Source: Caldisphaera sp.
GTDB taxonomy: Archaea; Thermoproteota; Thermoprotei_A; Sulfolobales; Acidilobaceae
Assembly: GCF_023256325.1 (NCBI RefSeq)
Contig: NZ_JAGDXI010000006.1
Location: 1-47,090 of the forward strand
Reading direction: 5' to 3'
DNA: 47,090 nt
In this document: positions 3,421 to 17,666 of the stretch, piece after piece
Position numbering within the stretch: the stretch's first letter is position 1
Layout: every line of letters begins with the position of its first letter
Made by a program: the position numbers and the translations under genes
Notes under the pieces: generated by a model
Databases searched by the model: none
The model's input: only the letters and a program-made list of their open reading frames with translations
What the model was told of the DNA's origin: nothing

Positions 3421-4164
3421 TTAAATTAAAGAAATTATTAAATGCGGATCTTTCATTAAAGAGCTTCCAATTAAAAATGCATCAGCTCCATGAGATTTAA
3501 AAATATCTATATCGTTTCTATTTTTTAATCCGCTTTCTGCAATTTTTATGAAGTTCTTTGGAATTTTTTCAATTAACTTAACTGCATTATTTAAATCAAT
3601 ACTCAAATTGAAAAGATTTCTAGAATTAACTCCTACAAAGCTTGGATTATAATTTATGACAACTTCTAGTTCGTTTTGATCATGTATTTCAACTAAGGAT
3701 TCCATACCATAATTTTTTATTTCATTTATTAAATTTTCCAATTCTTTTTCGGAAATAATTGAGGCTATTAACAATACAACATCTGCTCCTAGATTATATG
3801 CGCTTTCTATTTGATCAAATGTAACTACAAAATCTTTCATTAAAATGGGTTTTGATGTTAATTTGGCTATATTATTTAAAACTTCGTAAGAACCATTGAA
3901 ATATTTTTCTTCTGTTAATACACTAAATCCTGCAACATAATTTTCTAAAAATTTTACGTATTCTTTATAGTCTCTATCAGAAATAAATCCAGAAGGGGAT
4001 CTAGTCTTATATTCTGCAATTATTGGATTTAATTTTTTATATTTACTTTCTATTATTGAATTTCTTAAAGAATAAATTTTCCTATCTCTTTTACCATTAA
4101 ACTTATTTCTTTTTAATGAATGTTGTATAACATCATTTAACCAATTGTTAAAGTTTTTTGGCAC
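3421..4164 (-). CDS. trpC: Indole-3-glycerol phosphate synthase
   Basis: Converts carboxyphenylaminodeoxyribulose phosphate to indole-3-glycerol phosphate, the last step before tryptophan synthase. Its 247 residues match the thermophilic archaeal enzymes. Visible (beta/alpha)8 motifs are PIIAEYKTRSPSG (catalytic Lys and Glu region), ILMKDFVV, VGVNSRNL, IAESGLKN and FLIGSSLM. GTG at 4164 is the likely start: GGTGTT precedes it by 5 nt. It is the last gene of the trp operon, 2 nt after trpG. Expression probably depends on the promoter upstream of trpB. Confidence 0.95.
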   Translation of the reverse strand: MPKNFNNWLNDVIQHSLKRNKFNGKRDRKIYSLRNSIIESKYKKLNPIIAEYKTRSPSGFISDRDYKEYVKFLENYVAGFSVLTEEKYFNGSYEVLNNIAKLTSKPILMKDFVVTFDQIESAYNLGADVVLLIASIISEKELENLINEIKNYGMESLVEIHDQNELEVVINYNPSFVGVNSRNLFNLSIDLNNAVKLIEKIPKNFIKIAESGLKNRNDIDIFKSHGADAFLIGSSLMKDPHLIISLI

Positions 4165-4166
4165 GT

Positions 4167-4751
4167 TTAAACACCATTGACAAAATTATTTAAAATTAAT
4201 TTACCAACATCAGTCTTTATGCTTTCTGGATGAAACTGTAACCCAAAAACCGGAAACTCTTCATGATGTACTGCCATTATTTCGTTATCATCATAGGAAA
4301 TTGCATCAATTTTTAGGGGATCTTTTACATCGTCTATTACTAAACTATGATACCTTGTTGCATAGAATTCTTTTGGAACCCCTCTAAAAATCTTTGAGTC
4401 AGTATTTTTTAAAACAATTTTACTTGTTTTCCCATGATATATTTTCTTTGCCTTTCTAATTTTTGCCCCATATGTATAACCAATAATTTGGTGCCCTAAG
4501 CATATTCCAAGAATTGGTATTTTGCTACCAAATTTTTTAATTAGTTCTTTAGAAATACCTATATCCTCACTTTTTTCCGGTGTACCAGGGCCTGGAGAAA
4601 TTATAATTCTATCAGGGTTTATTCTTTCTATTATATTTAGTGAAATTTCATCATTTCTTACAACTATCGGTCTTGAGCCAAGCTCTCCAACGATCTGGAA
4701 AATGTTATAAACAAAACTATCATAATTATCTATAATAAGTGTTAAATCCAT
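4167..4751 (-). CDS. trpG: Anthranilate synthase glutaminase subunit
   Basis: Class I glutamine amidotransferase that supplies ammonia to TrpE for anthranilate synthesis. Visible are [10 protein letters not shown] at the N-terminus, ISPGPGTP, the nucleophile in GICLGHQ, and the His-Glu pair in FHPES. About 194 residues, a normal stand-alone subunit. Two adjacent ATGs exist at 4754 and 4751; the second keeps 3 nt after GGTGAT and is preferred. The start overlaps the trpE stop (TGATG), a sign of translational coupling that matches the 1:1 stoichiometry of the subunits. Confidence 0.95.
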
Positions 4752-5938
4752 CATATCACCCCTAAAGAAATTTTTAGCGCTTTTAATTTTTGTTCTGTCT
4801 CAATATACTCCAGTTCTGGCATAGAATCGTAGACGATGCCAGCACCGGCTTGAATTCTCATTATTTCATTATTTATATAGATTGACCTTATTGATAATGC
4901 CATCCTAGTATCTTTGTTGGAAACATAACCGACGACTCCAGCATATGGACCCCTTTTATATATTTCAAGTTCGTCTATTAAATTCATAGCAAAAGGCTTT
5001 GGGGCTCCAGAGACAGTACCTGCAGGAAAAAGAGATTTTATTATATATGATAGGTCTCTATTCTTGTCTATTTTACCTGTAACTTTTGAGACTATATGTT
5101 GAACATGACTAAATTTTTGTATATAAAAAGACTTAGGTACATTAACTGTGCCTGGAATACTAACTTTACCTATATCATTCCTTGCCAAATCTAAAAGCAT
5201 TAAGTGCTCTGCATTATCTTTTTCTGAATTTAATAGTTCATTTTCAAGTTTTTTATCGCTTTCTTCGTCTATACCTCTTTCTCTTGTTCCAGCTATTGGA
5301 TATGTTACGATGTTATTATTATATAGCTCAAATAGTAGTTCAGGACTTGCACCTATCAAAATCCTATTATAAAATTTTAAGTAATATAAATAGGGCGATG
5401 GACTAATCTTTCTTAGTTTTAGGTAAATATTTATTGGGTCTCCATTATAACTATATCTATAAAATCTTGATAATACAACCTGGAATGCATACCCTCTGTG
5501 AATGTAATCTAAAATTGTTTTTACTTTTTCTTTATATTCCTCTTTGCCCAGAGAAGAATCATAATAATCTACTTTAACCTCGTCAGTTTCGCACTTATTT
5601 ATTTTCTGCTCAATAACATTATCTTTTATATATATTGTTTCCTCTGGTATAAAAAACTCCGCATAAGGCCAATTCTCTATTGGTTTACTTATGTCCTTTA
5701 GTTTTTCCCAGAACTTTACAGAGTCATACGAAATATAACCAAAAGCTTTCTGTTTATATTTTTCTGTCAAATAATTCAATTGATCGAGAAACGATTCATC
5801 ATAACCTTTTATATAATCCTTTGGACTATACGCTATTATTATTTCATTTTTATTATAATTATTTTCTAAAATAGCTAATATCTTATTTTCTCTATCTAGA
5901 CATTTTACTAAATTCTCAATTTTGATATTGTTATCCAT
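4751..5938 (-). CDS. trpE: Anthranilate synthase component I
   Basis: Chorismate-using subunit of anthranilate synthase; with TrpG it makes anthranilate from chorismate and glutamine. The C-terminal catalytic half is clear: [56 protein letters not shown] and [11 protein letters not shown]. At 395 residues it is shorter than bacterial TrpE, mainly in the N-terminal regulatory half, so feedback sensitivity to tryptophan cannot be judged by eye. GGTGAT with a 5-nt spacer supports the ATG at 5938. It overlaps trpF by 8 nt and trpG by 1 nt. The adjoining trpG and trpD argue for trpE rather than the related pabB. Confidence 0.94.
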
Positions 5939-6521
5939 TATTTATCACCTCAATAATTTTCTTAACTAAATCGATATCTTTCTTACCGATTTCTTTTTCC
6001 ACACCACTAGATATATCAAACCAGCCTGGGTTTAGCTCAACAAATTCTTTTATATTATTTAAATTAATTCCTCCTCCAATACCTGCATTTGGAAGATAAT
6101 CAAGCATTTCCTTAACAATTTCTTTATTAATTCTTTGTCCTTTTATTGGAGAATCTAACAGTATCATATCTGTATAATTGACAGCCTTTTTGAGATAATT
6201 TATATATGAAAAATCTGCCGGAACGTATAAAATAACTTTCTTGTTATAAGATCTTATTTGATTTAGCTCATAGTCACTAAGTAACCTATGTATTTGCACA
6301 TAATTAGTTGGGGAATTCATTATTTCTTCTATGTTATCGTTAACCTTTACAGTAACAATAGGCTTGTTGGAAAACTTTACTGCATTAATTATAGTCTCCT
6401 TATCAACATATCTGGGACTAACTTTATCATTTATCATACCAATAAAATCAACCCCTACTTTATTTAATGATACGATATCTTCAATGTATTTAACACCGCA
6501 AATCTTTAATTTATTGCCCAT
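5931..6521 (-). CDS. trpF: Phosphoribosylanthranilate isomerase
   Basis: Isomerises phosphoribosylanthranilate to the carboxyphenylaminodeoxyribulose phosphate used by TrpC. Motifs are LKICGV at the N-terminus (catalytic Cys), VDFIGMI, a mid-protein LLDSPIKG (family LLD motif) and the phosphate-binding end GIGGGINLNN / FDISSGVE. About 196 residues, typical. The usual Thr after KICG[IL] is replaced by Lys, a mild divergence. The start ATG 6521 has GGTGAT 5 nt upstream and lies inside the end of trpD (11-nt overlap). Confidence 0.93.
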   Translation of the reverse strand: MGNKLKICGVKYIEDIVSLNKVGVDFIGMINDKVSPRYVDKETIINAVKFSNKPIVTVKVNDNIEEIMNSPTNYVQIHRLLSDYELNQIRSYNKKVILYVPADFSYINYLKKAVNYTDMILLDSPIKGQRINKEIVKEMLDYLPNAGIGGGINLNNIKEFVELNPGWFDISSGVEKEIGKKDIDLVKKIIEVINNG

Positions 6522-7548
6522 TTATCATCACCATTAATTTATTTAACTTGTTTATGTCTCCGTTTGATGAAACAATTTCTTTTAACCTTTCTTTTAAGTT
6601 TCTTAGTAGTTCAATAGATAACTCATAACCATCTTTGATATCTTTAATTCCTAATAAATAGAGTCCAAGAGCAGCATTGATTGCAATAAATGTTTCGGAA
6701 CTTTTATCTAATCCCATAGATGCTCTTAAAACTTTAATAGCTGATTCTTCTGGGTTATTAACAACTATATCTGAAATTTTAACTGGTTTTAAATTAAAAT
6801 CTTCTGGTGAAATTTCATATTTTTCTTCTTTTTCTTGTTTTATTTCTATAATCTTTGTTTTTCCTATAGGAGAAACTTCATCAATACCGGGATATCCTGT
6901 AACTAATATTATTTTGTCATATTTTAATTCTTTAACGGCATTTGCAATTATATCCAAATAGCTTTCTGGATAAACACCTATTATTTGCCTTTTAACATTA
7001 GCAGGGTTTGTTAAAGGGCCTATTATATTAAATATGGTTCTTATGCCTAGCTTTTTTCTTATAGGGGCTATGTTTTTCATGCTTTTATGATAAAGTTGAG
7101 CAAATAAAAATACGTAGTTATATTTTTCTATTAGTTCTTTTGCTCTCTCTGGATTTATGTTTATGTTATATCCTATTGTTTCTAAAAAATCTGCACTACC
7201 AGACTTACTTGAAAATGCCTTATTTCCATGTTTCGCTACAGGATTGTATTTACTTAACAATATCGAAACAACAGTGCTAACATTTAATGTATTTAATCCA
7301 TCTCCACCCGTTCCAACAATATCAATTGCGTTATCATAATTTATTTTTAATGAGTGTTTTCTTAAAGATCTAGCAAATCCAACAATTTCGTCTGAAGTTT
7401 CTCCCTTCATTTTTAATGCTGTCAATACGGCTGATGCAATAGTTTCATCAATATTTTCCTCTAATAAAATATCAGCAAGACCTTCAGCTTCTTCTTGCCT
7501 TAAATTCCTTTTATCTATTAAAATCTTAAGATAATCATTTAAATTCAT
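6511..7548 (-). CDS. trpD: Anthranilate phosphoribosyltransferase
   Basis: Transfers phosphoribose from PRPP to anthranilate. The glycine-rich PRPP loop VGTGGDGLNTLNVST, KHGNKAFSSKSGSAD and the anthranilate region IAPIRKKLGIRTIFNIIGPLTNPA are all present. The length of 345 residues equals the well-studied Sulfolobus enzyme. ATG 7548 overlaps the end of trpA by 14 nt, so translation is probably coupled. It is a separate gene, not fused to trpG as in some bacteria. Confidence 0.95.
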   Translation of the reverse strand: MNLNDYLKILIDKRNLRQEEAEGLADILLEENIDETIASAVLTALKMKGETSDEIVGFARSLRKHSLKINYDNAIDIVGTGGDGLNTLNVSTVVSILLSKYNPVAKHGNKAFSSKSGSADFLETIGYNININPERAKELIEKYNYVFLFAQLYHKSMKNIAPIRKKLGIRTIFNIIGPLTNPANVKRQIIGVYPESYLDIIANAVKELKYDKIILVTGYPGIDEVSPIGKTKIIEIKQEKEEKYEISPEDFNLKPVKISDIVVNNPEESAIKVLRASMGLDKSSETFIAINAALGLYLLGIKDIKDGYELSIELLRNLKERLKEIVSSNGDINKLNKLMVMINGQ

Positions 7549-8263
7549 CCAAAATCCCCCTTAGTTCTCTAACTAAATCAATGGCATAATCTATCCCATT
7601 AGTTTCAATTCTCTGTATGAAAGCGCTTCCAATAGCTATGCCATCTGCCCCTGCTTTCAATACGTTTTTTATATCGTTTAATGAGAGGCCAAAGCCAACA
7701 ATTAATTTATTATTAACAATTCCTCTTACTCTACTTACTAAAGCATCTGGTGATATTGGTAATTCAATTCCAGTAGTAGGTCTTAATCCATAATAAAGAA
7801 ATTCTCCAGACATTTCGCTTACTTTTGATATAAGTTTATCAGGAAATGTTGGTGTAGTAAATATTACATTCTTCAAGCCGAATTCGTTAATTTTTTTATG
7901 ATAATAATCTAAATAATCTAAATAATCTATAAGCAGATCTGGTAATAATACACCATTAAATTTATCTCTTATAATATTTAGAAATGAATCAAAATCATTT
8001 ATTTGGTCTTCTAAATATGTTAATGCAATTAATTTTTTGATGTTAGGTAATTTTTTAAGTAAATCAATAAAATCAATTTTTTCATCAAAAACCTTTTTAT
8101 AACTTCTTCTAATAATTGGCCCATCATATTTTGCATATTTTGTTGGTATACCAATTTCATAGATATCACAACCTTCTTTTTGGGATTTGTTGATGAATTC
8201 TATGAATTCTTCATCGTTTGGGTATCCTAAAGTCATATAACAAACTAAGCATCTATAACTCAT
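7535..8263 (-). CDS. trpA: Tryptophan synthase alpha subunit
   Basis: Cleaves indole-3-glycerol phosphate to indole and glyceraldehyde-3-phosphate. The catalytic Glu is in YEIGIP and the Asp in KYDGPIIRRS; phosphate-binding segments YYGLRPTTGIE, VGFGLS and GIAIGSAF are visible. 242 residues, slightly short for the family. The start is ATG 8263, 4 nt after GGTGGT; a GTG three codons earlier belongs to the SD. The ATG shares one base with the trpB stop (TAATG), so the two subunits are likely made in coupled amounts. Confidence 0.93.
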   Translation of the reverse strand: MSYRCLVCYMTLGYPNDEEFIEFINKSQKEGCDIYEIGIPTKYAKYDGPIIRRSYKKVFDEKIDFIDLLKKLPNIKKLIALTYLEDQINDFDSFLNIIRDKFNGVLLPDLLIDYLDYLDYYHKKINEFGLKNVIFTTPTFPDKLISKVSEMSGEFLYYGLRPTTGIELPISPDALVSRVRGIVNNKLIVGFGLSLNDIKNVLKAGADGIAIGSAFIQRIETNGIDYAIDLVRELRGILDEFK

Positions 8264-9531
8264 TAGGACCACCTCTCCATCATGGATTCATAGTTAGTTA
8301 AATCCAATAAGCCATGACCACTTAAATTGAACACTATTGTTTTCTTTTCATTGTTTTTCTTTAATTCCAAAGATTTCTCAATAACAGCCTTAATCGCGTG
8401 AGCCGATTCAGGTGCTGGAACTATACCCTGAGTTTTAGCAAATATTTTTGCTGCCTCATAAATTTCTTTTTCACTATATTCTTTCCACTTTACTATGCCT
8501 TCTCTAATTAACATGCTTAAAGACGGCGCTACTCCATGATATCTAAGCCCACCTGAATATATGGGAGGTGGAACATAGTTGTTCCCTAAAGTTATCATTT
8601 TTATCAATGGTAAAAGACCTGCAGTATCAGCAAAATCATATTTATATTCTCCTTTACTGAACTTAGGAATTTCCTTTGATCCAACAGCTATGAATTCTTC
8701 CCCAATTTTGTTCCCTATAAACGGGAATGCGAATCCTCCAAAATTACTTCCTCCACCTACACAGCCTATTAATATATCAGGGCTTTCTCCTATTAGATTC
8801 AATTGATTTATTGCTTCTAGACCAATAATACTTTGGTGCAGTATAGCAACATCTAATACACTACCCACAAGGTATTTGAACTTATTTTTTAAAGCAAATT
8901 CTATTGCCTCACTCATAGCAATACCTAAGGATCCTGGATGATCAGGATTTTCTTTGATTGTCTTTTTACCCACCTCTGTTAGGTCAGAAGGACTCGGATA
9001 TACGTGTGCCCCGTAAAGTTTCATAATTGTTTTTCTCATTGGTTTTTGATTATAGCTAACTTTTACCATAAATATGCTTGATTCAATATTGAAAAGTGAA
9101 GAAGAAAATGCAACCGCTGTTCCCCATTGTCCAGCGCCAGTTTCTGTCACTACATGAGTAATGCCTTCCTCTAGTGAAAAATAAGATTGTGCCAACGCAG
9201 TGTTTATTTTATGAGATCCTGTTGGTGTTGCCCCTTCATATTTGAAATATATTTTAGCTGGAGTGTTAAGATATTTTTCTAACCCTTTAGCTCTCATCAG
9301 AGGTGTAGGCCTGCCTAATATTTCGTATTTCTCTTTTAGTTCGTCAGGTATTTTAACAAATCTTTCTACAGTAAATTGCTGTCTTAATACTTCTTTTGGC
9401 ATTATTTCCCTTAACAGCTCAATCCTCGAGAAATCAGAACTAGGGGGATCACGAGGAGGTGATAAAGGCTTAGGAAGGTCCGGTATTATATTATACCAAA
9501 CCTTAGGAACTATCTCCTCATTATCTACCAT
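8263..9531 (-). CDS. trpB: Tryptophan synthase beta subunit, TrpB2 type
   Basis: PLP enzyme condensing indole with serine. The lysine that binds PLP is in GSHKINTA, and [10 protein letters not shown] holds the PLP phosphate. The long N-terminus ([11 protein letters not shown]) and [16 protein letters not shown] mark it as TrpB2 rather than TrpB1; Sulfolobus also carries TrpB2 in its trp operon. About 422 residues. First structural gene of the operon. ATG 9531 is oddly placed: the only SD (AGGTGGT, 9544-9550) is 12 nt away, with a better spaced GTG at 9539 that opens a four-residue leader ending in Trp. The ATG overlaps the leader Trp codon. Expression may therefore depend on leader translation (see the trp leader entry). 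Confidence 0.94.
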
Positions 9532-9539
9532 TGGCGCAC
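9525..9539 (-). CDS. Putative trp leader peptide MRQW
   Basis: GTG-CGC-CAA-TGG-TAG reads M-R-Q-W-stop. The GTG at 9539 stands 9 nt after the GTG of the SD AGGTGGT (9544-9550), the commonest spacing in this window; the trpB ATG stands at 17. The last sense codon is Trp, and the trpB ATG (9531-9529) overlaps the CAA and TGG codons in the -1 frame. The stop codon lies 4 nt downstream of the A of that ATG, suitable for termination-reinitiation. Seen: positions, spacing and overlap. Inferred: that the ribosome translates this ORF and that Trp-tRNA level tunes trpB initiation. Four codons could arise by chance. Confidence 0.55.
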
Positions 9540-9572
9540 TATAACCACCTAAGATTTACCTAAGTATACTTA

Positions 9573-9580
9573 TATATAAA
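9573..9580 (-). promoter_or_regulatory. trp operon TATA box
   Basis: TTTATATA on the minus strand, preceded by an A-rich BRE-like stretch. It lies 22 nt before the SD AGGTGGT, placing the predicted transcript start near 9550-9555, so the mRNA leader before trpB is only about 20 nt. That leaves no room for a transcription terminator hairpin, and any leader-based control must be translational. Confidence 0.65.
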
Positions 9581-9591
9581 TTTTTCACTAT

Positions 9592-9622
9592 ATTTAATTT
9601 AATAAATAACATTAAATTAAAT
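9592..9622. promoter_or_regulatory. Inverted repeat centred between trp and aro promoters
   Basis: ATTTAATTTAA (9592-9602) and TTAAATTAAAT (9612-9622) form a perfect 11-bp inverted repeat with a 9-nt spacer. Its centre (9607) is about 30 bp from the middle of each divergent TATA box, so it is symmetric to both promoters. It could bind a dimeric regulator acting on both operons (Lrp-like or other). All bases are A or T, so chance similarity in an AT-rich spacer is a real alternative. Confidence 0.4.
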
Positions 9623-9633
9623 CAAGATAAAAG

Positions 9634-9641
9634 TTTAAATA
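9634..9641 (+). promoter_or_regulatory. aro operon TATA box
   Basis: TTTAAATA, preceded by AAAG (BRE-like), lies 24 nt before GAGGTG at 9666. The predicted transcript start is near 9660-9664, directly in front of the SD that serves the aro leader ORF. Confidence 0.6.
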
Positions 9642-9677
9642 GTGGGATATATTATATTTAGTTTTGAGGTGGAGTTG

Positions 9678-9722
9678 ATGGAATTCCAATGGGGCGAGGG
9701 TATGATGCCCAGCCAATATTAA
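9678..9722 (+). CDS. Putative aro leader peptide MEFQWGEGMMPSQY
   Basis: A 14-residue ORF with an excellent SD: GAGGTGGA, then GTTG, then ATG, 9 nt after the GTG of the SD. It contains one Phe, one Trp and one Tyr, exactly the three end products of the pathway encoded downstream. The presumed transketolase ATG (9689) lies within it, overlapping the Gln-Trp codons (CCAATGG) in the -1 frame, just as at trpB. That ATG is 20 nt from the GTG of the SD, too far for normal initiation here. The ORF ends 31 nt beyond the transketolase ATG. Translation is inferred from SD geometry only. Confidence 0.6.
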   Translation: MEFQWGEGMMPSQY

Positions 9723-10471
9723 ACAGTGGGGATAAACCTCGTTCTTCTCCTAGCTTGGAAAATGTTTATGAATTGTTAATAAAGAAAAAAATTAATGCCA
9801 GCAATAATTTAAACGAATTCCTTAAAAAAATAAATAATTATCATGCCGAATCGTCTAGATCTGTTTTAAACATATTGATAACTCTTTATAATTACTGGGT
9901 TCCAAAAGGAATCGATCTCGGCATAAAAAGGTCCATAATACTTAGTAAAGGACACGCTTCTCCAGCTCTTTATGTTTTACTTTCACAAAATAATGAAATT
10001 GAAGAGGAAGAACTAGAAAGCTTTGCAATGCCGAATTCACGCTTACAGTCTCATCCAGAAGGAGGTAAAATTCCTGGTATATTGTTTTCAACAGGCTCAT
10101 TAGGGCAAGGTCTCTCAGTTGCAAATGGTATAGCATTTGCTGCTAAACTGAATAGGGAAAGAAAAGAAATAGCAGTTATCTTAGGTGATGGAGAACTCGA
10201 TGAAGGACAAATATGGGAATCCATATCTACTTCATTTTCATTAAAAATAGATAATGTTTTAGCTATAATAGATAGAAACGGCTTTCAGTTATCTGGGCCA
10301 ACGGAAGAAATAAAAATAAAAGAATCTATAAAGAAGAAATTTGAAGCATTTGGCTGGTACGCACTAGAAGTAAGGAATGATATAAAGGAATTAATCATTG
10401 CTTTAGATATGTTATCAGAAATAAACGGAATTCCTAAGGCTTTAATAGTTAAAGGTGATATACAAAGTTGA
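9689..10471 (+). CDS. Transketolase, N-terminal (ThDP-binding) subunit
   Basis: First half of a split transketolase; with the next gene it interconverts pentose, triose and erythrose phosphates and supplies erythrose-4-phosphate to the aro pathway. Visible are SKGHASPALY, GSLGQGLSVANGIAFA and the ThDP/Mg site GDGELDEGQIWES followed by DRNGFQLSG. The usual SGHPGGS segment is altered to YHAESSRS: the His remains but the glycines are lost. The start is uncertain. ATG 9689 has no properly spaced SD and overlaps the leader ORF, and the first 22 residues look unlike the family; TTG 9755 is an alternative without an SD. About 260 residues. It overlaps the next gene by 4 nt. Confidence 0.85.
   Translation: MGRGYDAQPILNSGDKPRSSPSLENVYELLIKKKINASNNLNEFLKKINNYHAESSRSVLNILITLYNYWVPKGIDLGIKRSIILSKGHASPALYVLLSQNNEIEEEELESFAMPNSRLQSHPEGGKIPGILFSTGSLGQGLSVANGIAFAAKLNRERKEIAVILGDGELDEGQIWESISTSFSLKIDNVLAIIDRNGFQLSGPTEEIKIKESIKKKFEAFGWYALEVRNDIKELIIALDMLSEINGIPKALIVKGDIQS
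9693..9714 (+). promoter_or_regulatory. Possible RNA hairpin at the aro start region
   Basis: GGC (9693-9695) can pair with GCC (9712-9714), and GGG (9698-9700) with CCC (9708-9710), leaving a 7-nt loop; this is unusually GC-rich for the region. It begins 1 nt after the leader Trp codon. CGAGG at 9695-9699 could alternatively pair with CCTCG at 9737-9741, and ACCTC at 9736-9740 could pair with the SD GAGGT at 9666-9670. These pairings exclude each other in part and could form a switch. No folding energy was calculated. Confidence 0.35.
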
Positions 10472-11406
10472 ACCTAAATTATAGCTATAGAGACTCATTT
10501 GGTAAAGCATTAGTTAAAGTAGGAGAAAAAAAGAAAGAGGTAATTGTTGTTGATTCTGACGTATCTAAGTCTACATATACAAAATATTTTGCTGAAAAAT
10601 TCCCAAATAGGTTCGTATCTGTTGGGATTAGCGAGCAAGATCTTATAGGTTTTTCTTCAGGACTCGCTTTAGGCGGGAAAATACCTATTGCTGTTGCATT
10701 TTCAATGTTTTTAATGAGAGCATGGGAACAAATAAGAAACACCATTGCAAGGGATAATTTAAACGTAAAAATAGTTGGAACTCATTCGGGTTTATCTGAT
10801 TTTTTAGATGGATCTTCACATCAAGCAATAGAAGATATATCCTTAATTAGAATATTGCCCAATTTTACTGTTTTATCACCTTCAGATATAATTGCAACTG
10901 AGAAACTTGTTTATGAGATGGTAGACCATTATGGACCAGTATATATGAGAATCGGTAGAGACAATTCACCGAAAATTTATGATGAAAGTGAGGAGTTCAG
11001 AATAGGTAAATCTAAAGTACTAATGGAAGGAGAAGATATTTTAATAGTTTCATATGGACCTATGGTTGCTATTTCACAAGAAGTAGCTAATTCATTAAAT
11101 AAAAAAGGTTTTAGCATATCATTAATAGATCTTTATTCTATAAAACCATTTGATGAACAAACTGTTATAAAGTATTCGAAAAAAGCAAATCATGTTGTTG
11201 TTATAGAAGAGCACAACGTTAACGGAGGAGTAGGCGATATGATATCTTCTTTTTTGTCTTCCAGAATACCTAGAAAGGTTACTAAAATAGGAATAGAAGA
11301 TTCTTTTGGAACTTCCGGTAGAAGCTATTTTGAATTAATTGAATTTTTTAAATTAACTCCTAAATTTATTGAAGATAAATTAAAGGTGATGCGTGATGAA
11401 TTATAA
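10468..11406 (+). CDS. Transketolase, C-terminal subunit
   Basis: Second half of the split transketolase (pyrimidine-binding and C-terminal domains). The catalytic Glu lies in VSVGISEQDLIGFSSGLAL; HSGLSDFLDGSSHQAIEDI, GPVYMRIGRD and the C-terminal VVIEEHNVNGGVGD are typical. 312 residues. The start is TTG 10468, with GGTGAT upstream at 10454-10459; it overlaps the TGA of the preceding gene, so the two subunits are probably translated in coupled fashion. Sulfolobus also encodes transketolase as two genes beside aro genes, which supports a dedicated role in aromatic synthesis. Confidence 0.9.
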   Translation: MNLNYSYRDSFGKALVKVGEKKKEVIVVDSDVSKSTYTKYFAEKFPNRFVSVGISEQDLIGFSSGLALGGKIPIAVAFSMFLMRAWEQIRNTIARDNLNVKIVGTHSGLSDFLDGSSHQAIEDISLIRILPNFTVLSPSDIIATEKLVYEMVDHYGPVYMRIGRDNSPKIYDESEEFRIGKSKVLMEGEDILIVSYGPMVAISQEVANSLNKKGFSISLIDLYSIKPFDEQTVIKYSKKANHVVVIEEHNVNGGVGDMISSFLSSRIPRKVTKIGIEDSFGTSGRSYFELIEFFKLTPKFIEDKLKVMRDEL

Positions 11407-12190
11407 GTTAGTTAGCAAAGAATATAAGGAAAAAACTTTAGTTAAAGTAGGTAATGTAGTTGTTGGAGAGAAACCTGTTATAATAGCAGGTCCATGTGCT
11501 GTAGAAAACAGAGAGCAAATTATTAAAACAGCTTTTTTTGTTAAGGAAAATGGAGCAAAAATTTTGAGAGGGGGAGCATATAAACCCAGAACATCGCCGT
11601 ATAGCTTTCAAGGTTTAGGTGAACAAGGTTTAAAGCTTTTAAGAGAAGCATCGGATGAGGCAAAAATACCTTTTGTAACAGAAATAATGGATATAGAGCA
11701 TATAAAGATTGTTTCTGAGTATGCTGATGCTCTTCAAGTGGGAGCAAGAAATATGCAAAACTATTCATTATTGAAAGAGTTGGGGAAAATTGATAAGCCG
11801 ATTTTCTTAAAGAGAGGATTTGGCAACACTGTTGAGGAGCTCTTACAATCTGCAGAATACATATTAAATGGAGGAAACGAACAGGTAGTATTAGTTGAGA
11901 GGGGTATAAGAACATTCGAATCATCAACTAGGTTTACTTTAGATATAGCAGCCGTACCTGTATTAAAGGGCCTAACGCATTTACCAGTTATAGTAGATCC
12001 AAGTCATGCAGCTGGTAAAAGGGTTTTAGTTCCTCCATTAGCAAAAGCTGGCATAGCAGTAGGTTCTGATGGATTAATGATAGAGGTTCATCCAGAACCA
12101 GATAAAGCTTTATCAGATGGCCCTCAGCAGCTTACTTTTGATATGTTTAAGCAATTAATGGACGACATAAAGAAAATAGCGGTGATTTAA
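11396..12190 (+). CDS. DAHP synthase, type I-beta without regulatory domain
   Basis: Condenses phosphoenolpyruvate and erythrose-4-phosphate to DAHP, the first committed aromatic step. Motifs are IIAGPCAVE (metal Cys), LRGGAYKPRTSPYSFQG, LQVGARNMQN, FLKRGFG, ERGIRTFE and the metal-binding VDPSHAAGKR. The 264 residues cover only the barrel; there is no N-terminal ACT domain (as in Thermotoga) and no chorismate mutase domain, so no built-in feedback site is visible. ATG 11396 is preferred, 10 nt after the GTG of the SD GGTGAT (11385-11390); a GTG one codon earlier is possible. It overlaps the transketolase gene by 11 nt. Confidence 0.93.
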   Translation: MNYKLVSKEYKEKTLVKVGNVVVGEKPVIIAGPCAVENREQIIKTAFFVKENGAKILRGGAYKPRTSPYSFQGLGEQGLKLLREASDEAKIPFVTEIMDIEHIKIVSEYADALQVGARNMQNYSLLKELGKIDKPIFLKRGFGNTVEELLQSAEYILNGGNEQVVLVERGIRTFESSTRFTLDIAAVPVLKGLTHLPVIVDPSHAAGKRVLVPPLAKAGIAVGSDGLMIEVHPEPDKALSDGPQQLTFDMFKQLMDDIKKIAVI

Positions 12191-13230
12191 TGATATTTAA
12201 TATAAACGGAAATGAAGTAAATATTTTGATAGGAGATAATATATTAAATAAATTTGATCAAGAGAAAAAGTATTTTATAATATATCAGGATTCATTATCA
12301 AACGAACTAAATAAAATTGTATCTAATTTGAAATATTATGATATTTATAAAGCACCTGATGGAGAAAGGGCCAAAGATATTAATGTTGTATTAGATATAA
12401 TAAAGAAAATGGTAAAAAAAGGGTATACAAGAAAAGATGCTATAATATCATTGGGAGGAGGAACTATTTCTGATTTAGCTGGTTTTGTTGCATCTATTTA
12501 TATGAGGGGAATTGACCTTATTAATATACCGACAACACTCTTATCAATGGTAGACGCATCTATAGGAGGAAAAAATGGTGTAAATTTTGAAGGAATTAAA
12601 AATGTTATTGGTACATTTTATCAGCCCAAAATAATAATAAACGATATATCGTTTTTGAGAACTTTACCTAAAGAAGAAATATTGAATGGCATGGGAGAAG
12701 TGATAAAATATTCTGTTACTATGGATAAAAATCTTTATAATTATTTAATAGACAATAAAGATAATATACTAAACTTAAATAAAGAGCCATTAATTTTTAT
12801 TATAGAATCGTCTATAAAAGATAAAATGAAAATAGTTATTAATGATGAAAAGGAAACAAATGGGTTGAGGACTGTTCTAAACTTTGGACATACTATAGGT
12901 CATGCAATAGAATCTGGGAGCGAGTTTAAAATTAAACACGGTTTTGCAGTATCTTATGGTATGATTTGTGAAACTCAAATAGGAATTAATGAAAGAATTA
13001 TTAACGAAGATGTTTATTACGCTATAAAGAATGCTGTTGATTTGTATAATATAAAAATAGATTTAAATAATATAAATATAAATAAAGCTTTGGAATCTTT
13101 AGGAAAAGATAAGAAGAGATTGAATAATAGAAAAATTATGATTCCGTTACCTGTTAGAATTGGAGAATTTAAGATATTTACGTTGGATTTAGATATAATT
13201 GAGAAGGGATTTATAAGATGTCTAAATTAA
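12190..13230 (+). CDS. aroB: 3-Dehydroquinate synthase
   Basis: NAD- and metal-dependent cyclisation of DAHP to 3-dehydroquinate. The NAD-binding stretch SLGGGTISDLAGFVAS, NIPTTLLSMVDASIGGKNGV, MGEVIKY and the metal ligands in NFGHTIGHAIE and KHGFAVSYGM are present. 346 residues, the normal classical type; it is not the alternative archaeal DHQ synthase II of methanogens. ATG 12190 shares a base with the preceding stop (TAATG) and has GGTGAT 3 nt upstream. Confidence 0.95.
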   Translation: MIFNINGNEVNILIGDNILNKFDQEKKYFIIYQDSLSNELNKIVSNLKYYDIYKAPDGERAKDINVVLDIIKKMVKKGYTRKDAIISLGGGTISDLAGFVASIYMRGIDLINIPTTLLSMVDASIGGKNGVNFEGIKNVIGTFYQPKIIINDISFLRTLPKEEILNGMGEVIKYSVTMDKNLYNYLIDNKDNILNLNKEPLIFIIESSIKDKMKIVINDEKETNGLRTVLNFGHTIGHAIESGSEFKIKHGFAVSYGMICETQIGINERIINEDVYYAIKNAVDLYNIKIDLNNININKALESLGKDKKRLNNRKIMIPLPVRIGEFKIFTLDLDIIEKGFIRCLN

Positions 13231-13967
13231 GCCTCGGCTTATTGGGAGAAAATATTAGTAAAAGTCCTTCTCCAATCCTTCACAATTTCATTTATAATTA
13301 TTTTAATATAGAAGCTGAATATAAATTATATGAAATAAAAAGGGAAAGTTTTCATGAAAAAATTAATTACATAATTAAAAATAACTATGGACTAAATGTT
13401 ACGATGCCATATAAAGAATTAATAATAAAATATACAAAAGAAGTTTCAGATGATGCCAAAAAAATTGGAGCAATAAACACTATTAAAGGTGATATTGGAT
13501 ATAACACAGATTATCTCGCTTTCAAAAAAATGCTATCGCAATATGATATAAAAACTTGTTTAATTATGGGTGCAGGAGGATCCGCAAGGGCAGCATCTTT
13601 TGCAGTTTCTGAATTAGATCCTGACATTATTTTAATATATAATAGAAGTGTAGAAAGGGCTATGAATTTGATAAATGATCTCAAAAAAATTGGTACTAAT
13701 GCAACATATATACAAAGTTTAAATGGAATAGAAGTAGATGCATTAATAAATACAATTCCTGTTGATCTAGACTTTAATATTAAATCGAAAACTATTTATG
13801 TTGATCTAGTTTATACGAGAAAAGCCAAAAAAATTTCACAAAATATAATTGATGGCATTGATTTCTTAATAGAACAGGGTTTGTTATCTGATGAAATATG
13901 GTTTAATATTAAAGCAGATGAAGAGGTTAAGAAATATGTCAGGAAACTCGTTAGGAAATCTTTTTAG
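13218..13967 (+). CDS. aroE: Shikimate dehydrogenase
   Basis: NADP-dependent reduction of 3-dehydroshikimate to shikimate. Visible are [11 protein letters not shown] (shikimate-binding serines), NVTMPYKE (catalytic Lys), GAINTI, NTDYLAF and the nucleotide loop [10 protein letters not shown]. 249 residues, compact for the family. ATG 13218 overlaps aroB by 13 nt; the upstream AAGGGATT is a weak SD. Its 3' end contains the aroC start. Confidence 0.93.
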
Positions 13968-15087
13968 AATAACTACATTTGGTGAAAGCCACGGTAAAGC
14001 AATAGGTGTAGTCATAGATGGTGTTCCAGCAGGTTTAAAATTAAGTGAAGAAGATATTTATTTTGAACTAAAATATAGAAAACCTGGAAATAAATATGTT
14101 TCAACAAGAAAAGAGGAAGATAAACCACAGATTTTAAGCGGGATATTTAACGGTAAAACGACAGGAATGCCTATAGCAATACTTATAGAAAATAAAGATG
14201 CAATGCCGATACACTATGAAGAAATCAAACATAAGCCAAGACCCGGGCATGCAGATCTACCATTTATTGAAAAATATGGATATGAAAACTGGGACTATAG
14301 AGGCGGCGGTAGGAGCTCTGCTAGAGAAACCGTAGCAAGGGTTGCAGCGGGTGCCATTGCTAAGAAACTTCTATTGCTTTATAATACAATGGTTGCAGGT
14401 TATATTAAAGCGTCTGCAGATTTATTTATAGAAGAAACACCAAATTTTGATGATATTCTTTGTTCAAGAGAAAGTGAAGTTAGAACTATAAAAAGAGAAG
14501 AAAATAAGTTTAAGGAAATAATTGAAAAAGTAAGAAGAGAAGGAGATAGTATAGGAGGGCTTGTAGAAATAATTGTAAAAAATCCGCCTAAAACATTGGG
14601 TGAACCTGTTTTCAATAAACTTAAAGCCGATCTTGCAAAAGCATTATTGTCTATACCAGGAGTTGTTGGGTTTGAATATGGAATAGGATTCAATTCTTAT
14701 AAACTTAAAGGTAGTGAAGTAATGGATGAAATATATTACGATGGAGAATTTAGGTTTAGAAAAAACGTTTCTGGAGGCATCTTAGGAGGTATATCCACAG
14801 GTGAAGACATAATATTGAGAATAGCGTTTAAGCCAACTAGCTCTATAAATAAAGAACAGAAAACAGTAGACTTACTGGATAATCTAAAACCAACTACGTT
14901 ATCAATAATTGGAAGACATGATCCATGCATAGCTATTAGAGGTGTTTCAGTAGCAGAATCGATGGTGGCCTTAACTTTAGTTGATCATTCTATGCTATCT
15001 GGTATAATACCTAGGGTTAGATTAACCGATCAGCAAAGTGAAATTATAGAAAAGAGGTGGTCAGAATTCAAGAAGAAATGCATATAG
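13936..15087 (+). CDS. aroC: Chorismate synthase
   Basis: FMN-dependent conversion of EPSP to chorismate. The N-terminal signature [32 protein letters not shown] and the C-terminal [17 protein letters not shown] are clear. The start chosen is ATG 13936, which gives [11 protein letters not shown], has AGAGGTT 8 nt upstream and leaves 383 residues; an ATG at 13891 would add an unrelated 15-residue extension. It overlaps aroE by 32 nt. Confidence 0.94.
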
Positions 15088-15830
15088 CTTATGCAGGTGT
15101 TTCTATAGTTAATGCTATTCCTTGCGGAAGAGGAGCTGTAATACCTATTAATTTGAAAGCATATGCTAAAGAAGGAAGTAAAAATAGGGATTCTCCTTTA
15201 ATAAGTGCCATTGAAGATTATTTATATAAAAAATATAATTTGAAAACAACCTTTCAAATTTTCTCTGAAATACCTGAAGGTGTAGGTTTAAAGAGCAGTA
15301 GTGCTGTTTCTGTTGCTATATTATCATCTATTGAAGAAAAAACGAAAGTATATCCTCCACTCTTGTCTGCAATTATAACAAAAGAATATGGCCTTTCAAT
15401 CACAGGGGCATTTGATGACGCAGTCTCTAGCTATGAAGGAAAAATTAGTTTTACAGATAACTTGAATTTAAAAATATTAAAATTAATCGAAAACCCTTAC
15501 GATTTAAATGTAATAATTGTAATAAAGGGAAGGAGGAATGAGTTAAATGTAAACTTAATGAGAGAAAATTGCAAATTCTTTGATGAGGCATTTAAAAGAG
15601 GTATTAATGGAGATATATTTGGGGCAATTAAAATTAATGGTTACCTTATGGCGAAAATAAACAATTATGAAACAGAAATTTTAGATTATATGATTAAAAA
15701 AGGTGCAATTGCTGCAGGTATTTCAGGTAATGGGCCATCATATTTTGGCTTAGTTAAGAAAGGAGAGGAAGGGCCTTTGCTCGATCACTTTGAAGGATTT
15801 AAAATAGTATTAACCCAGGTGGTAAAATGA
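15078..15830 (+). CDS. Shikimate kinase, archaeal GHMP type
   Basis: Phosphorylates shikimate. It belongs to the GHMP kinase superfamily used by archaea instead of bacterial Aro[17 protein letters not shown] is the ATP loop and [13 protein letters not shown] the C-terminal glycine-rich motif. About 250 residues from ATG 15078. The start is not settled. The strong SD GAGGTGG (15054-15060) stands 21 nt from this ATG but exactly 9 nt from an in-frame ATT at 15066, so a rare AUU start (four residues longer) is possible; GTG 15057 is inside the SD. It overlaps aroC by 10 nt. Confidence 0.9.
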
Positions 15831-17053
15831 AGGTTACGATATTACCTTCTATAATTAAAGGAGAATTGGAAGCTCCTAAATCAAAAAGCATAGCTATAAG
15901 AATATTATTTGGATCTTTGATAAATGACGTTTTATTGAAAGAAGAAATTCCTAAGTCTGATGATGTTATTTATGCATATCGATCTATTTTAAAAATGGGA
16001 GTTTTGCATGAAGAAAATAAGCTAAAAAAGCCTAATTCGATAAGCCTAAATAATTTTTTTTATGTTGGGGGATCAGGAACTGTTGCGAGAATTTTATCAG
16101 GGTTAGCAATTATATTGGGTGGAGAAACTGTAATAGATGGAGATCAAAGTTTAAGAAATAGACCTTTTGATGGGTTATTAAAAATTTCTAAGTTAACTGA
16201 TTCTGAGGTTTCTAGTAATAGATTGCCAATCAAGGTAAAAAGTAAGGGAAAGGTTAATTATATTGAATTGCCTGAGCTTGAAAGCTCTCAGTATGTTTCT
16301 GGTATAATCTATGGCATGGCTTTAAATGATGGAGGTATCATAAAAATGAAGGAAAAAATTCCGTCGTTATATTATATAATGTTAACTATTGATTTATTGA
16401 ATAAAATGGGATGCGATATAAAGTTAGAAGAAAATGAAATACATATAGGCAAATGTACAAAAAATGCTTATGAAACATCATTTCCTGGAGATTATTTATT
16501 ATCGTCATTTTATGCTGTTTCATCATTGTTAACCGGGGGGTTAACAATTATAAAAGGGCTTTATGAGCTTCCAAAATACAATGGCGATCATGACATAGTA
16601 AAAATTTTAAATTATGCTAATATTAAATCGGAGGTTAAAGGTGATAAATGGATTGTTTATGGTAATGAGATTAATGGAGAAATAAATGTAGACGTTGAGA
16701 ACACACCTGATATGGCTATGTCGTTAGCTCCCTTAGGGACTAAATTAAAAATTGAAATCAATGGGATAAGAAGATTAAGGATTAAAGAAAGCGACAGAAT
16801 ATTATCTATTAAAGATACCTTGGAAAAATTTGGCAATAATGTAAAAATTTATGATAATAAAATTATAATAAATCCAGGTAAATTAAAAATGGCTGAGATT
16901 AATTGTAACAATGATCATAGGGTAGCTATGATGGCAGCTTCAATTTCATTTATTAAGGGAGGAATAATTAATAATGCTGAATGCATAAACAAAAGCGATC
17001 CGATGCATTGGGAAAGATATAAAAAATTAGGAGGAGAAATGAAAATTGAATAA
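15827..17053 (+). CDS. aroA: EPSP synthase
   Basis: 3-Phosphoshikimate 1-carboxyvinyltransferase, the glyphosate-target step. PKSKSIAIRILFGSL, GGSGTVARILSGLA, RNRPFDGLL, ELPKYNGDHDIVKIL, RIKESDRI and NNDHRVAMMAAS are all recognisable. 408 residues, slightly shorter than bacterial enzymes. The start ATG overlaps the shikimate kinase stop as ATGA. It lies between the kinase and dehydratase genes of the same pathway. Confidence 0.94.
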   Translation: MKVTILPSIIKGELEAPKSKSIAIRILFGSLINDVLLKEEIPKSDDVIYAYRSILKMGVLHEENKLKKPNSISLNNFFYVGGSGTVARILSGLAIILGGETVIDGDQSLRNRPFDGLLKISKLTDSEVSSNRLPIKVKSKGKVNYIELPELESSQYVSGIIYGMALNDGGIIKMKEKIPSLYYIMLTIDLLNKMGCDIKLEENEIHIGKCTKNAYETSFPGDYLLSSFYAVSSLLTGGLTIIKGLYELPKYNGDHDIVKILNYANIKSEVKGDKWIVYGNEINGEINVDVENTPDMAMSLAPLGTKLKIEINGIRRLRIKESDRILSIKDTLEKFGNNVKIYDNKIIINPGKLKMAEINCNNDHRVAMMAASISFIKGGIINNAECINKSDPMHWERYKKLGGEMKIE

Positions 17054-17666
17054 ACCATTGATAGTACTGTCTATACCATATGGTGATGTTAGTGAGTATA
17101 TTAATTCTGAAGCCGATTATATTGAAGTAAGGTTAGACTATAAGAAAAATTTAACAATATATGACATAGATGAGTTTTTAAAATATAAAGAAAAAGTAAT
17201 TTTAACTATTAGGGATTTAAGTGAAGGAGGAATTTTTCCAATAAGAGATGATGCTAAACTAAACATATATAAAAAAATTTTTGATTATGGAATTAAGTAT
17301 GACGTCGAAATGAGATTTTTGGAAAAGTATAAGATACCATACGAAGGCCAGATAGTTTCATCTCATTATTTAAATTCTTTGCCAGGTATAAATGAACTTA
17401 TAGAAAAATATAAGAAACTTGACAATTTGTTTACAGCAAAGGTTGCAATTAAAAACATAAATGGATATAAGTCTATATTAGCAAAGTTCTTAGAAATAAT
17501 AAACAATCCCACAGTAATTCCTATAGGAGCTCCCTGGTATGAGAGAATTTCATATTCATTGCTTGGTTCCAAACTTTTATATGTTTATGACAAAGTACAA
17601 ACAGGGGAAGGCCAACCAAAATTAAGTATAGCTGCTAAAATATTAAAAGAAATATTTAATGGCTAA
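17046..17666 (+). CDS. aroD: 3-Dehydroquinate dehydratase, type I
   Basis: Schiff-base enzyme converting 3-dehydroquinate to 3-dehydroshikimate. EVRLDY (substrate Glu), VILTIRDLSEGG, the active His in IVSSHY, the Schiff-base Lys in FTAKVA and the closing GQPKLSI are visible. 206 residues, short but typical for archaea. The start is TTG 17046 with AGGAGGAG just upstream, overlapping aroA by 8 nt. Last biosynthetic gene of the aro operon. Confidence 0.93.
   Translation: MNKPLIVLSIPYGDVSEYINSEADYIEVRLDYKKNLTIYDIDEFLKYKEKVILTIRDLSEGGIFPIRDDAKLNIYKKIFDYGIKYDVEMRFLEKYKIPYEGQIVSSHYLNSLPGINELIEKYKKLDNLFTAKVAIKNINGYKSILAKFLEIINNPTVIPIGAPWYERISYSLLGSKLLYVYDKVQTGEGQPKLSIAAKILKEIFNG

Follow-up and report, generated by a model that had tools for sequence, protein, structure and literature searches.

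How are the first genes of two divergent aromatic amino-acid operons translated when the Shine–Dalgarno (SD) sequence ahead of each is spaced for a different, overlapping open reading frame (ORF)? The question is raised by a stretch of 47,090 nucleotides (nt) from Caldisphaera sp. (contig NZ_JAGDXI010000006.1, positions 1 to 47,090; hereafter the window), in which 9,540–9,677 is the spacer between a trp operon on the minus strand, with the gene order trpB-A-D-F-E-G-C, and an aro operon on the plus strand, comprising tktN (transketolase N-terminal subunit) as its first gene, tktC, 3-deoxy-D-arabino-heptulosonate 7-phosphate (DAHP) synthase and further aro genes. Comparison of the short leader ORFs at the head of both operons with those of related archaea makes it very probable, as far as sequence can tell, that they are amino-acid-gated −1 frameshift switches controlling trp, aro and phe genes.

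The trp leader mini-ORF (9,525–9,539, minus strand) reads GTG CGC CAA TGG TAG and encodes MRQW followed by a stop; its SD, AGGTGG (9,545–9,550), stands 5 nt ahead of the GTG. The Trp sensor codon TGG (9,528–9,530) overlaps the trpB ATG (9,531–9,529), and the proposed slip site is C-CAA (9,531–9,534), where CAA would occupy the P site and a −1 shift would bring its tRNA onto CCA. The trpB frame (8,263–9,531, PALP enzyme family) would be entered by this shift, giving a predicted N-terminus M-R-Q-M-V-D-N. On the plus strand, the SD GAGGTGG (9,666–9,672) precedes the aro leader mini-ORF (MEFQWGEGMMPSQY, stop; 9,678–9,722), whose codons are ATG GAA TTC CAA TGG GGC GAG GGT ATG ATG CCC AGC CAA TAT TAA. 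This leader holds all three aromatic codons in the same register: a Phe sensor, G-GAA-TTC (9,680–9,686), from which the −1 frame is open into tktN; a Trp sensor, C-CAA-TGG (9,686–9,692), which includes the tktN ATG (9,689–9,691); and a Tyr sensor, C-CAA-TAT (9,713–9,719). The tktN frame is open from 9,668 to 10,471, and each of the three sensors would give access to it through a −1 shift. An internal SD-like GAGG (9,696–9,699) precedes a second start at ATG 9,705 (MPSQY, stop at 9,722), forming a second module of SD and ATG within the leader (9,696–9,722); similar tandem modules occur in genomes of family f3 (family numbers were assigned by the tool used). Two congeners encode MGFQWGEGMMPSQY and MEYQWGEGMMPSQY as their aro leader peptides.

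The trpB and tktN ATGs both lie within CCAATGG, one base off the register of CAA TGG. A preliminary description of this locus had placed both mini-ORFs, their SDs and the structural ATGs at coordinates that agree with the sequence, and had put the ATGs beyond SD range. The latter is correct, with an AGGTGG-to-start spacing of 5 nt for both mini-ORFs, 13 nt for the trpB ATG and 16 nt for the tktN ATG, although the 17 and 20 nt that it quoted had been counted from inside the SD. It also took the aro leader for a Trp sensor; the Trp codon is there, but the Phe (GAA-TTC) and Tyr (CAA-TAT) codons had been missed.

The leaders are widely conserved. A first survey of 60 relatives found a mini-ORF upstream of 28 of 30 trpB loci, and an extended survey of 75 genomes from 12 families found a leader with a matched slip base in 74 of 78, so that conservation in relatives, which the preliminary description had set as a test of its proposal, is borne out. 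The 78 loci combine the first set with a phylum-wide search and fetched regions,; for each genome the best trpB match was taken, three second copies were added, and 11 duplicates and most operon-internal or second copies were excluded. The leader is present at all loci of f1 (15), f2 (2), f3 (9), f4 (2), f5 (3), f8 (1), f9 (13; presumably Desulfurococcaceae), f10 (2), f11 (25; which we take to be Sulfolobaceae) and f12 (1; another order of the same class), and at one of three f7 loci. Leaders were found at 3 of 31 loci in other classes of the phylum (f47, f51 and f53) and at 4 of the 45 loci read among 80 named ones, the four being a Pyrodictiaceae, a Thermogladius, an Acidilobaceae and a Centralia soil Crenarchaeota genome. 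Peptides include MRQW, MSQW, MYQW, MHQW, MFQW, MRQWT, MQRQWI, MLEWS and MRRWG, and the nearest mini-ORF start codon is ATG in 39, TTG in 26 and GTG in 4 of 69 deduplicated trpB leaders. Where trpA leads the unit, it is trpA that carries the leader (six loci, L033, L034 and L036–L039, e.g. MRQWI, MKSQWL and MESQWS), and at one locus, L037, a trpD divergent from the leader-bearing trpA has a leader of its own (MSQW). Under a fixed definition, the counts are 5 of 39 trpA ORFs and 2 of 39 trpD ORFs; in each group a single case (L179 and L177, respectively) looks coincidental.

What is conserved is a rule rather than a peptide. In each sensor an aromatic codon comes directly after X-XAA (C-CAA or G-GAA), and slipping back one base there leads into the enzyme frame. 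In trp leaders, the codon preceding CAA is CGC, CAC, AGC, TAC, TTC or TCC (66 sites), the residue varying and the last base being C in all 66, and the codon preceding GAA is TTG or CTG (8 sites). The base ahead of the slip codon equals the first base of that codon in 126 of 130 catalogued sites; the catalogue allowed only CAA, GAA and CGA as slip codons, and 7 of its rows were set aside as coincidental, three with the matched base and four without, these four being all of the misfits. With the codon unrestricted, the base matches in 74 of 75 trpB leaders. Only with such a match can a P-site tRNA that slips by −1 keep its first pair; by pairing rules, the third pair would also be kept for CAA and GAA, and the middle position would become a mismatch (CAA) or a G-U pair (GAA). 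Gln-Trp, offered in the preliminary description as the leader hallmark, is usual at trpB, but Gln is dispensable, with Glu in its place in one clade and Arg in one genome. Two ORFs overlapping in the −1 register, a feature of classical programmed −1 frameshifting, are present, and the X-XXY-YYZ slippery heptamer is absent, the sites reading C-CAA-UGG, C-CAA-UAY, G-GAA-UUY and similar. The A-site codon corresponds to the pathway product, being Trp in trp leaders, Phe at pheA (prephenate dehydratase), and Phe, Trp or Tyr at tktN.

The combination of SD, mini-ORF, Trp codon over the gene start and stop within three codons is found in 59 of 83 trpB ORFs against 3 of 316 control ORFs (Fisher p 6e-47, with related genomes treated as independent); copies inside operons are counted among the 83, and L050, included in the 59, has a different, start-Trp-stop arrangement. 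By itself, the pattern DTGNNCCAATGG occurs often and is no rarer in a reversed control. In 400 kb of a congener, 14 combinations of site and start were found and an aromatic codon followed none of them; with regard to the sensing of other amino acids, nothing beyond such chance-like sites was seen in these 400 kb. Two pattern searches across 78 genomes gave 28 hits among the 60 places whose loci were read, 22 of them tktN; the 20 hits preceded by no more than 35 open codons are all tktN, and 6 of the 28 lie inside other long ORFs. Common as the bare pattern is, chance as the source of the leaders is rejected by the control counts, the matched base and the conservation. We also reject CCAATGG as a DNA operator, since the variants GGAATGG, CCGATGG, CCAATAY and GGAATTT keep the start codon, the register and the aromatic codon.

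We propose that a ribosome would initiate at the SD-spaced mini-ORF and reach X-XAA and the aromatic codon within a few codons. With the aminoacyl-tRNA plentiful, the aromatic codon would be decoded and translation would usually end at the early stop, yielding little enzyme. With it scarce, the A site would stay empty and the P-site tRNA would slip back by one base (CAA to CCA, GAA to GGA), keeping its first and third pairs, and translation would continue in the enzyme frame. TrpB, TktN and PheA would then be −1 frameshift products, and overlapping downstream genes would follow by coupling. The trp operon would sense Trp, pheA would sense Phe and the aro operon Phe, Trp and/or Tyr, scarcity opening the operon as is usual in control by an end product. 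Since every CAA-UGG contains an AUG, the trpB ATG may be a by-product of that sequence and not a start. It is likely that in much of the order this starvation-induced −1 frameshifting is obligate, with no true start in the enzyme frame, and that multi-sensor aro leaders act as an OR gate for Phe, Trp and Tyr. The idea in the preliminary description that translation of the Trp codon governs use of the overlapped AUG gains support, with the correction that the conserved element is the aromatic codon after X-XAA and not the AUG; the slip itself, its dependence on starvation (also suggested there), the sign of the response and the coupling of downstream genes are inferred.

Leaders with Phe or Tyr codons bear most directly on whether the enzyme frame has a start of its own. 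Of 98 genomes from the order, 52 have a recognized tktN, and the device occurs with varied aromatic codons at most of 30 returned tktN loci and at most further family tktN loci, with peptides including MEFQW, MEFRW, MERQYLG, MSRQYVLI, MRRQY, MEFQYRN, MEYQYR and MAGRQWRQY. Tyr, Phe and Trp stand together in MVAERQYQFQW, MEFQWGVRSRQFPEAGELPRQYRA and LHQWKEGDVMEFQYQ each contain all three aromatic sensors, f3 has two mini-ORFs in tandem before tktN (e.g. MEFQW then MQLQY), and many tktN leaders have the Tyr sensor alone. No convincing leader was found at L237, L238, L240, L246 and L249 (f6 and f7), three other f7 loci are ambiguous (L239, L242 and L243), and a candidate is lacking at 4 of 24 tktN loci scanned for slip-site leaders. 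CAA-UAY and GAA-UUY contain no AUG, and the tktN frame is then often without a start past the slip site. In L222, L223, L229, L289, L290, L284 and L287, there is no start between the slip and at least codon 35: the only start after the slip in L222 and L223 is an ATG two codons before the thiamine-enzyme domain, L287 has none before codon 36, and L229, L289, L290 and L284 have none at all between slip and domain. Differences at codon positions 1, 2 and 3 number 2, 1 and 17 between L229 and L286 (41 codons after the slip), 3, 1 and 16 between L286 and L289, and 11, 14 and 30 between L285 and L290 (46 codons); judged by this pattern, the post-slip stretch is coding in the enzyme frame in these clearest pairs. 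As a separate observation, L235 (genome G446) has the leader MRNQFQYQIL, with Phe and Tyr codons, before a 394-codon ORF that ends in the transketolase N-subunit and carries an extra N-terminal region.

Prephenate dehydratase was found in 34 of 78 genomes, and its leader begins ATG GAA TTT in 7 of 8 fetched f11 pheA loci and in the genome of the window itself (peptides MEFTI and MEFII, and MEFIIWDH in the latter); 11 of 30 pheA loci did not fit the search pattern used for this comparison. At L272, L273, L274 and L278, the enzyme frame is devoid of ATG, GTG and TTG all the way between the upstream stop and a point 12 codons into the YYLGP motif. Alignments with solved dehydratases start at the Ile that follows the slip, near the N-termini of the solved proteins (residue 5 of 4lub, 6 of 2qmw and 9 of 2qmx), and a product M-E-I-Y-Y-L-G-P would therefore fit the family. 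In L278 (G055), a stretch of about 35 residues of the dehydratase (SKSSISEIFDG...NETL) stands twice in tandem, either as a real duplication or as an assembly artefact. In G414 (contig C7, 1,152,669–1,153,934), there is a TAG within a PF02153 (tyrA-type) match, and prephenate dehydratase is matched in two separate parts; these may be pseudogenes, assembly errors or recoding.

These loci speak against termination and reinitiation, in which a ribosome would finish the mini-ORF and restart on the overlapped AUG, with the Trp codon tuning this step and no change of frame. Stop and AUG are indeed close, the stop falling within one codon after Trp in 57 of 69 trpB leaders as compared with 14 of 83 SD-led ATGG gene starts (p about 1e-16); G243 reads ATG CGG TAA TGG, with the stop overlapping the start, and some tktN leaders end in TTGA or GTGA overlaps (L224, L226, L227 and L228). 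Reinitiation nonetheless needs a start codon, which is present for trpB (AUG) and absent in frame at pheA of L272, L273, L274 and L278 and after the slip at tktN of L222, L223, L229, L289 and L290, and it predicts neither the X-XAA rule nor Tyr and Phe codons after CAA or GAA. Simple reinitiation is rejected as unable to serve loci without a start codon, and we regard any version of it as very unlikely. Of the options raised in the preliminary description, the −1 shift is favoured over reinitiation or occlusion by the Phe and Tyr leaders that feed start-less enzyme frames and by the X-X match.

Start-less loci could also be explained by direct initiation at AUG, AUA or AUU (trpB, tktN and pheA), the mini-ORFs being by-products of start context. 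AUU is a known rare start codon, and at CAA-U and GAA-U sites the sensor is invariably followed by AUN as the first codon in the gene frame. The SD is, however, spaced for the mini-ORF start, with the AUN 13–16 nt away in the window, and direct initiation would leave unexplained the conservation of the mini-ORF start, the early stop, the X-X match and the pathway-matched codon; we find this account scarcely credible.

All of the structural evidence for a −1 shift would apply equally to constitutive programmed frameshifting, that is, a real shift at a fixed level with no response to amino-acid supply, and 12 of 69 trpB leaders have downstream folding with z below −2. Folding is, however, no general feature (mean z −0.94 for trpB, −0.14 for tktN and −0.15 for pheA, with 37 °C parameters); a general downstream stimulatory structure was not found, although trpB leans slightly that way. 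C-CAA and G-GAA are poor classical slippery sites, the post-slip codon matches the pathway product, and multi-sensor leaders carry QY, QF and QW in one ORF (L234 and L231). A fixed level of shifting has a very low probability in our assessment. An internal SD stimulates −1 shifts in Escherichia coli at 8–11 nt, according to passages of one study (PMC6321510), and the SD stands at about that spacing from the slip codon in most leaders of trpB (11–12 nt, 57 of 69) and pheA (9 nt, 6 of 8). As a conserved quantity, this distance is only suggestive for trpB and pheA, and it was rejected as such given the range of 3–22 nt in tktN.

Several observations weigh against amino-acid-gated frameshifting as a general account, the inconstant SD-to-slip distance of tktN among them. 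CAA on CCA re-pairs only two of three bases. Among the 78 trpB loci, the leader is absent in f6 (2 loci) and in G257, and that of G243 is degenerate, as quoted above; within f7, these last two are L134, with a plain GTG start in frame with trpB, and L133. L265 (f11) and the pheA loci of other families (f3, f6 and f7) have no leader, and the other four pheA leaders keep in-frame starts, namely ATG at −14 (L267 and L268), TTG at −7 (L270, preceded by an SD-like stretch) and GTG at −5 (L276). In tktN, possible starts lie upstream of the slip in L229 and L289 (GTG inside the SD), L290 (GTG) and L284 (GTG and ATG, 36–39 codons away), and L224, L226, L227, L228 and L232 have GTG or TTG after it. Codon-position bias is weaker between L224 and L226 (11, 12 and 18) and between L229 and L287 (20, 15 and 25), and there is none between L232 and L233 (6, 5 and 6). 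All of the tests ignore shared ancestry, taking related genomes as independent. Possible in-frame starts at several loci, and the lack of codon-position bias in some pairs, lower our confidence slightly.

Beyond the leaders, Pfam matches back trpB (PALP), trpA, trpD, trpF, trpE, trpG, trpC, both transketolase subunits and DAHP synthase, other aro gene names being our reading of the translations without Pfam. The genes trpA, trpD, trpF, trpE, trpG and trpC (3,421–8,272, minus strand) overlap or abut one another, so that their translation may be coupled to that of trpB; downstream of tktN, tktC, DAHP synthase and the other aro genes (10,468–17,666, plus strand) are tightly packed and may likewise be coupled to it.

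Side observations concern further trp loci. G037, G047 and G057 (f3) have two trpB genes each, every copy with its own Trp leader (L007/L153, L008/L163 and L006/L150). At the second trpB of the window genome (L050, contig C27) and at L366 of a congener, TTG TGG TAA overlaps the GTG start of that gene. In L038 (3,454, plus) and L039 (3,754, plus), an MSQWA mini-ORF overlaps a 32-codon ORF that ends on the trpD start codon, possibly a relay, its 32 residues not being conserved between the two genomes. The trpB loci of f16 (L347–L352, L196, L197 and L115, the last named Candidatus Methanomethyliaceae) have a conserved SD and ATG that open MGDRFW-type mini-ORFs in the other register, holding UUU-UGG or CUU-UGG, where a +1 slip into trpB might occur; this variant is ambiguous, since variable sites are synonymous in the trpB frame and an ordinary GTG start would explain them equally well. 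The trpB match of G024 (L028) holds an in-frame TAA and is a pseudogene, an assembly error or a case of recoding. The TrpB of L148 is identical across 418 residues to PDB 6hul, presumably from Saccharolobus solfataricus.

The position of the promoter narrows the kind of control that could operate. In 51 of 69 trpB leaders, as against 2 in a control window, a TATA-like box lies at −48 to −28; its distance from the nominal start of the mini-ORF is about 42 nt, and the mRNA leader would therefore be only about 13 nt long. In the window, the trp operon has the TATA-like TTTATA at 9,575–9,580 (minus strand), which matches the common position in relatives, and the aro operon has the TATA-like TTTAAATA at 9,634–9,641 (plus strand). 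Transcription attenuation is rejected, as the leader ORF overlaps the gene and a leader of about 13 nt would have no room for a terminator or antiterminator; the preliminary description had excluded termination before trpB for the same lack of room.

In the E. coli attenuation leaders trpL and pheL, a short leader ORF with end-product codons likewise senses charged tRNA. Here, in contrast, there is no space for a terminator or antiterminator, the mini-ORF and the enzyme gene overlap, and it is the ribosome rather than RNA polymerase that would be redirected. Bacillus subtilis rtpLP/AT resembles our leaders in that a leader peptide with Trp codons governs how the following gene is translated, with no transcription termination involved, but there the SD is uncovered or blocked, whereas here the stalled ribosome would cover the AUG. 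Bacterial release factor 2 (RF2, prfB) similarly uses an SD-stimulated frameshift early in the gene to sense an A-site decoding factor, although its shift goes in the +1 direction, takes place on a stop codon and responds to a release factor. In the proposed working, the closest likeness is to hungry-codon frameshifting, described in passages of two reviews as a −1 slip of a single P-site tRNA next to an empty A site whose codon awaits a scarce aminoacyl-tRNA (PMC5009743, PMC8211752); one of the two adds that no stimulatory element is needed (PMC8211752). It is known there as an accident of starvation, whereas here it would be a built-in operon gate: where the 2016 recoding review treats starvation-specific frameshift products it states that 'no examples are known', and it judges pheL frameshifting incidental (PMC5009743). 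In the ermC leader, as that review outlines it, a regulatory frameshift in a leader ORF also raises expression of the following gene, but a macrolide causes the shift, the shifted ribosome only unfolds the mRNA and the product is not fused to the enzyme (PMC5009743). The only archaeal −1 case presented in the relevant part of a 2021 review is fucA1 of S. solfataricus, a related archaeon, in which two frames are linked by a −1 shift, yet at an A-rich slippery sequence inside the gene, with full-length homologues and no known sensing codon (PMC8211752). No description of a system like the present one was found in literature judged by titles, abstract openings and some passages, a scope outside which most subscription journals and bioRxiv preprints not in PMC fall. 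Its nearest kin are attenuation leaders in what is sensed and hungry-codon frameshifting in its proposed working.

If this account is true, hungry-codon frameshifting would here have its first regulatory use in nature, the leaders would form a distinct class of translational amino-acid sensor, and a phenomenon familiar from laboratory bacteria under starvation would acquire a natural purpose. The minimal sensor would consist of an SD, a start codon, a slip codon, an amino-acid codon and a stop. Archaeal −1 frameshifting would grow from the single case given in the 2021 review (PMC8211752) to a regulon in dozens of genomes. The usually assumed start sites of TrpB, TktN and PheA would be wrong in these genomes, and aromatic synthesis in these archaea would be controllable without attenuators.

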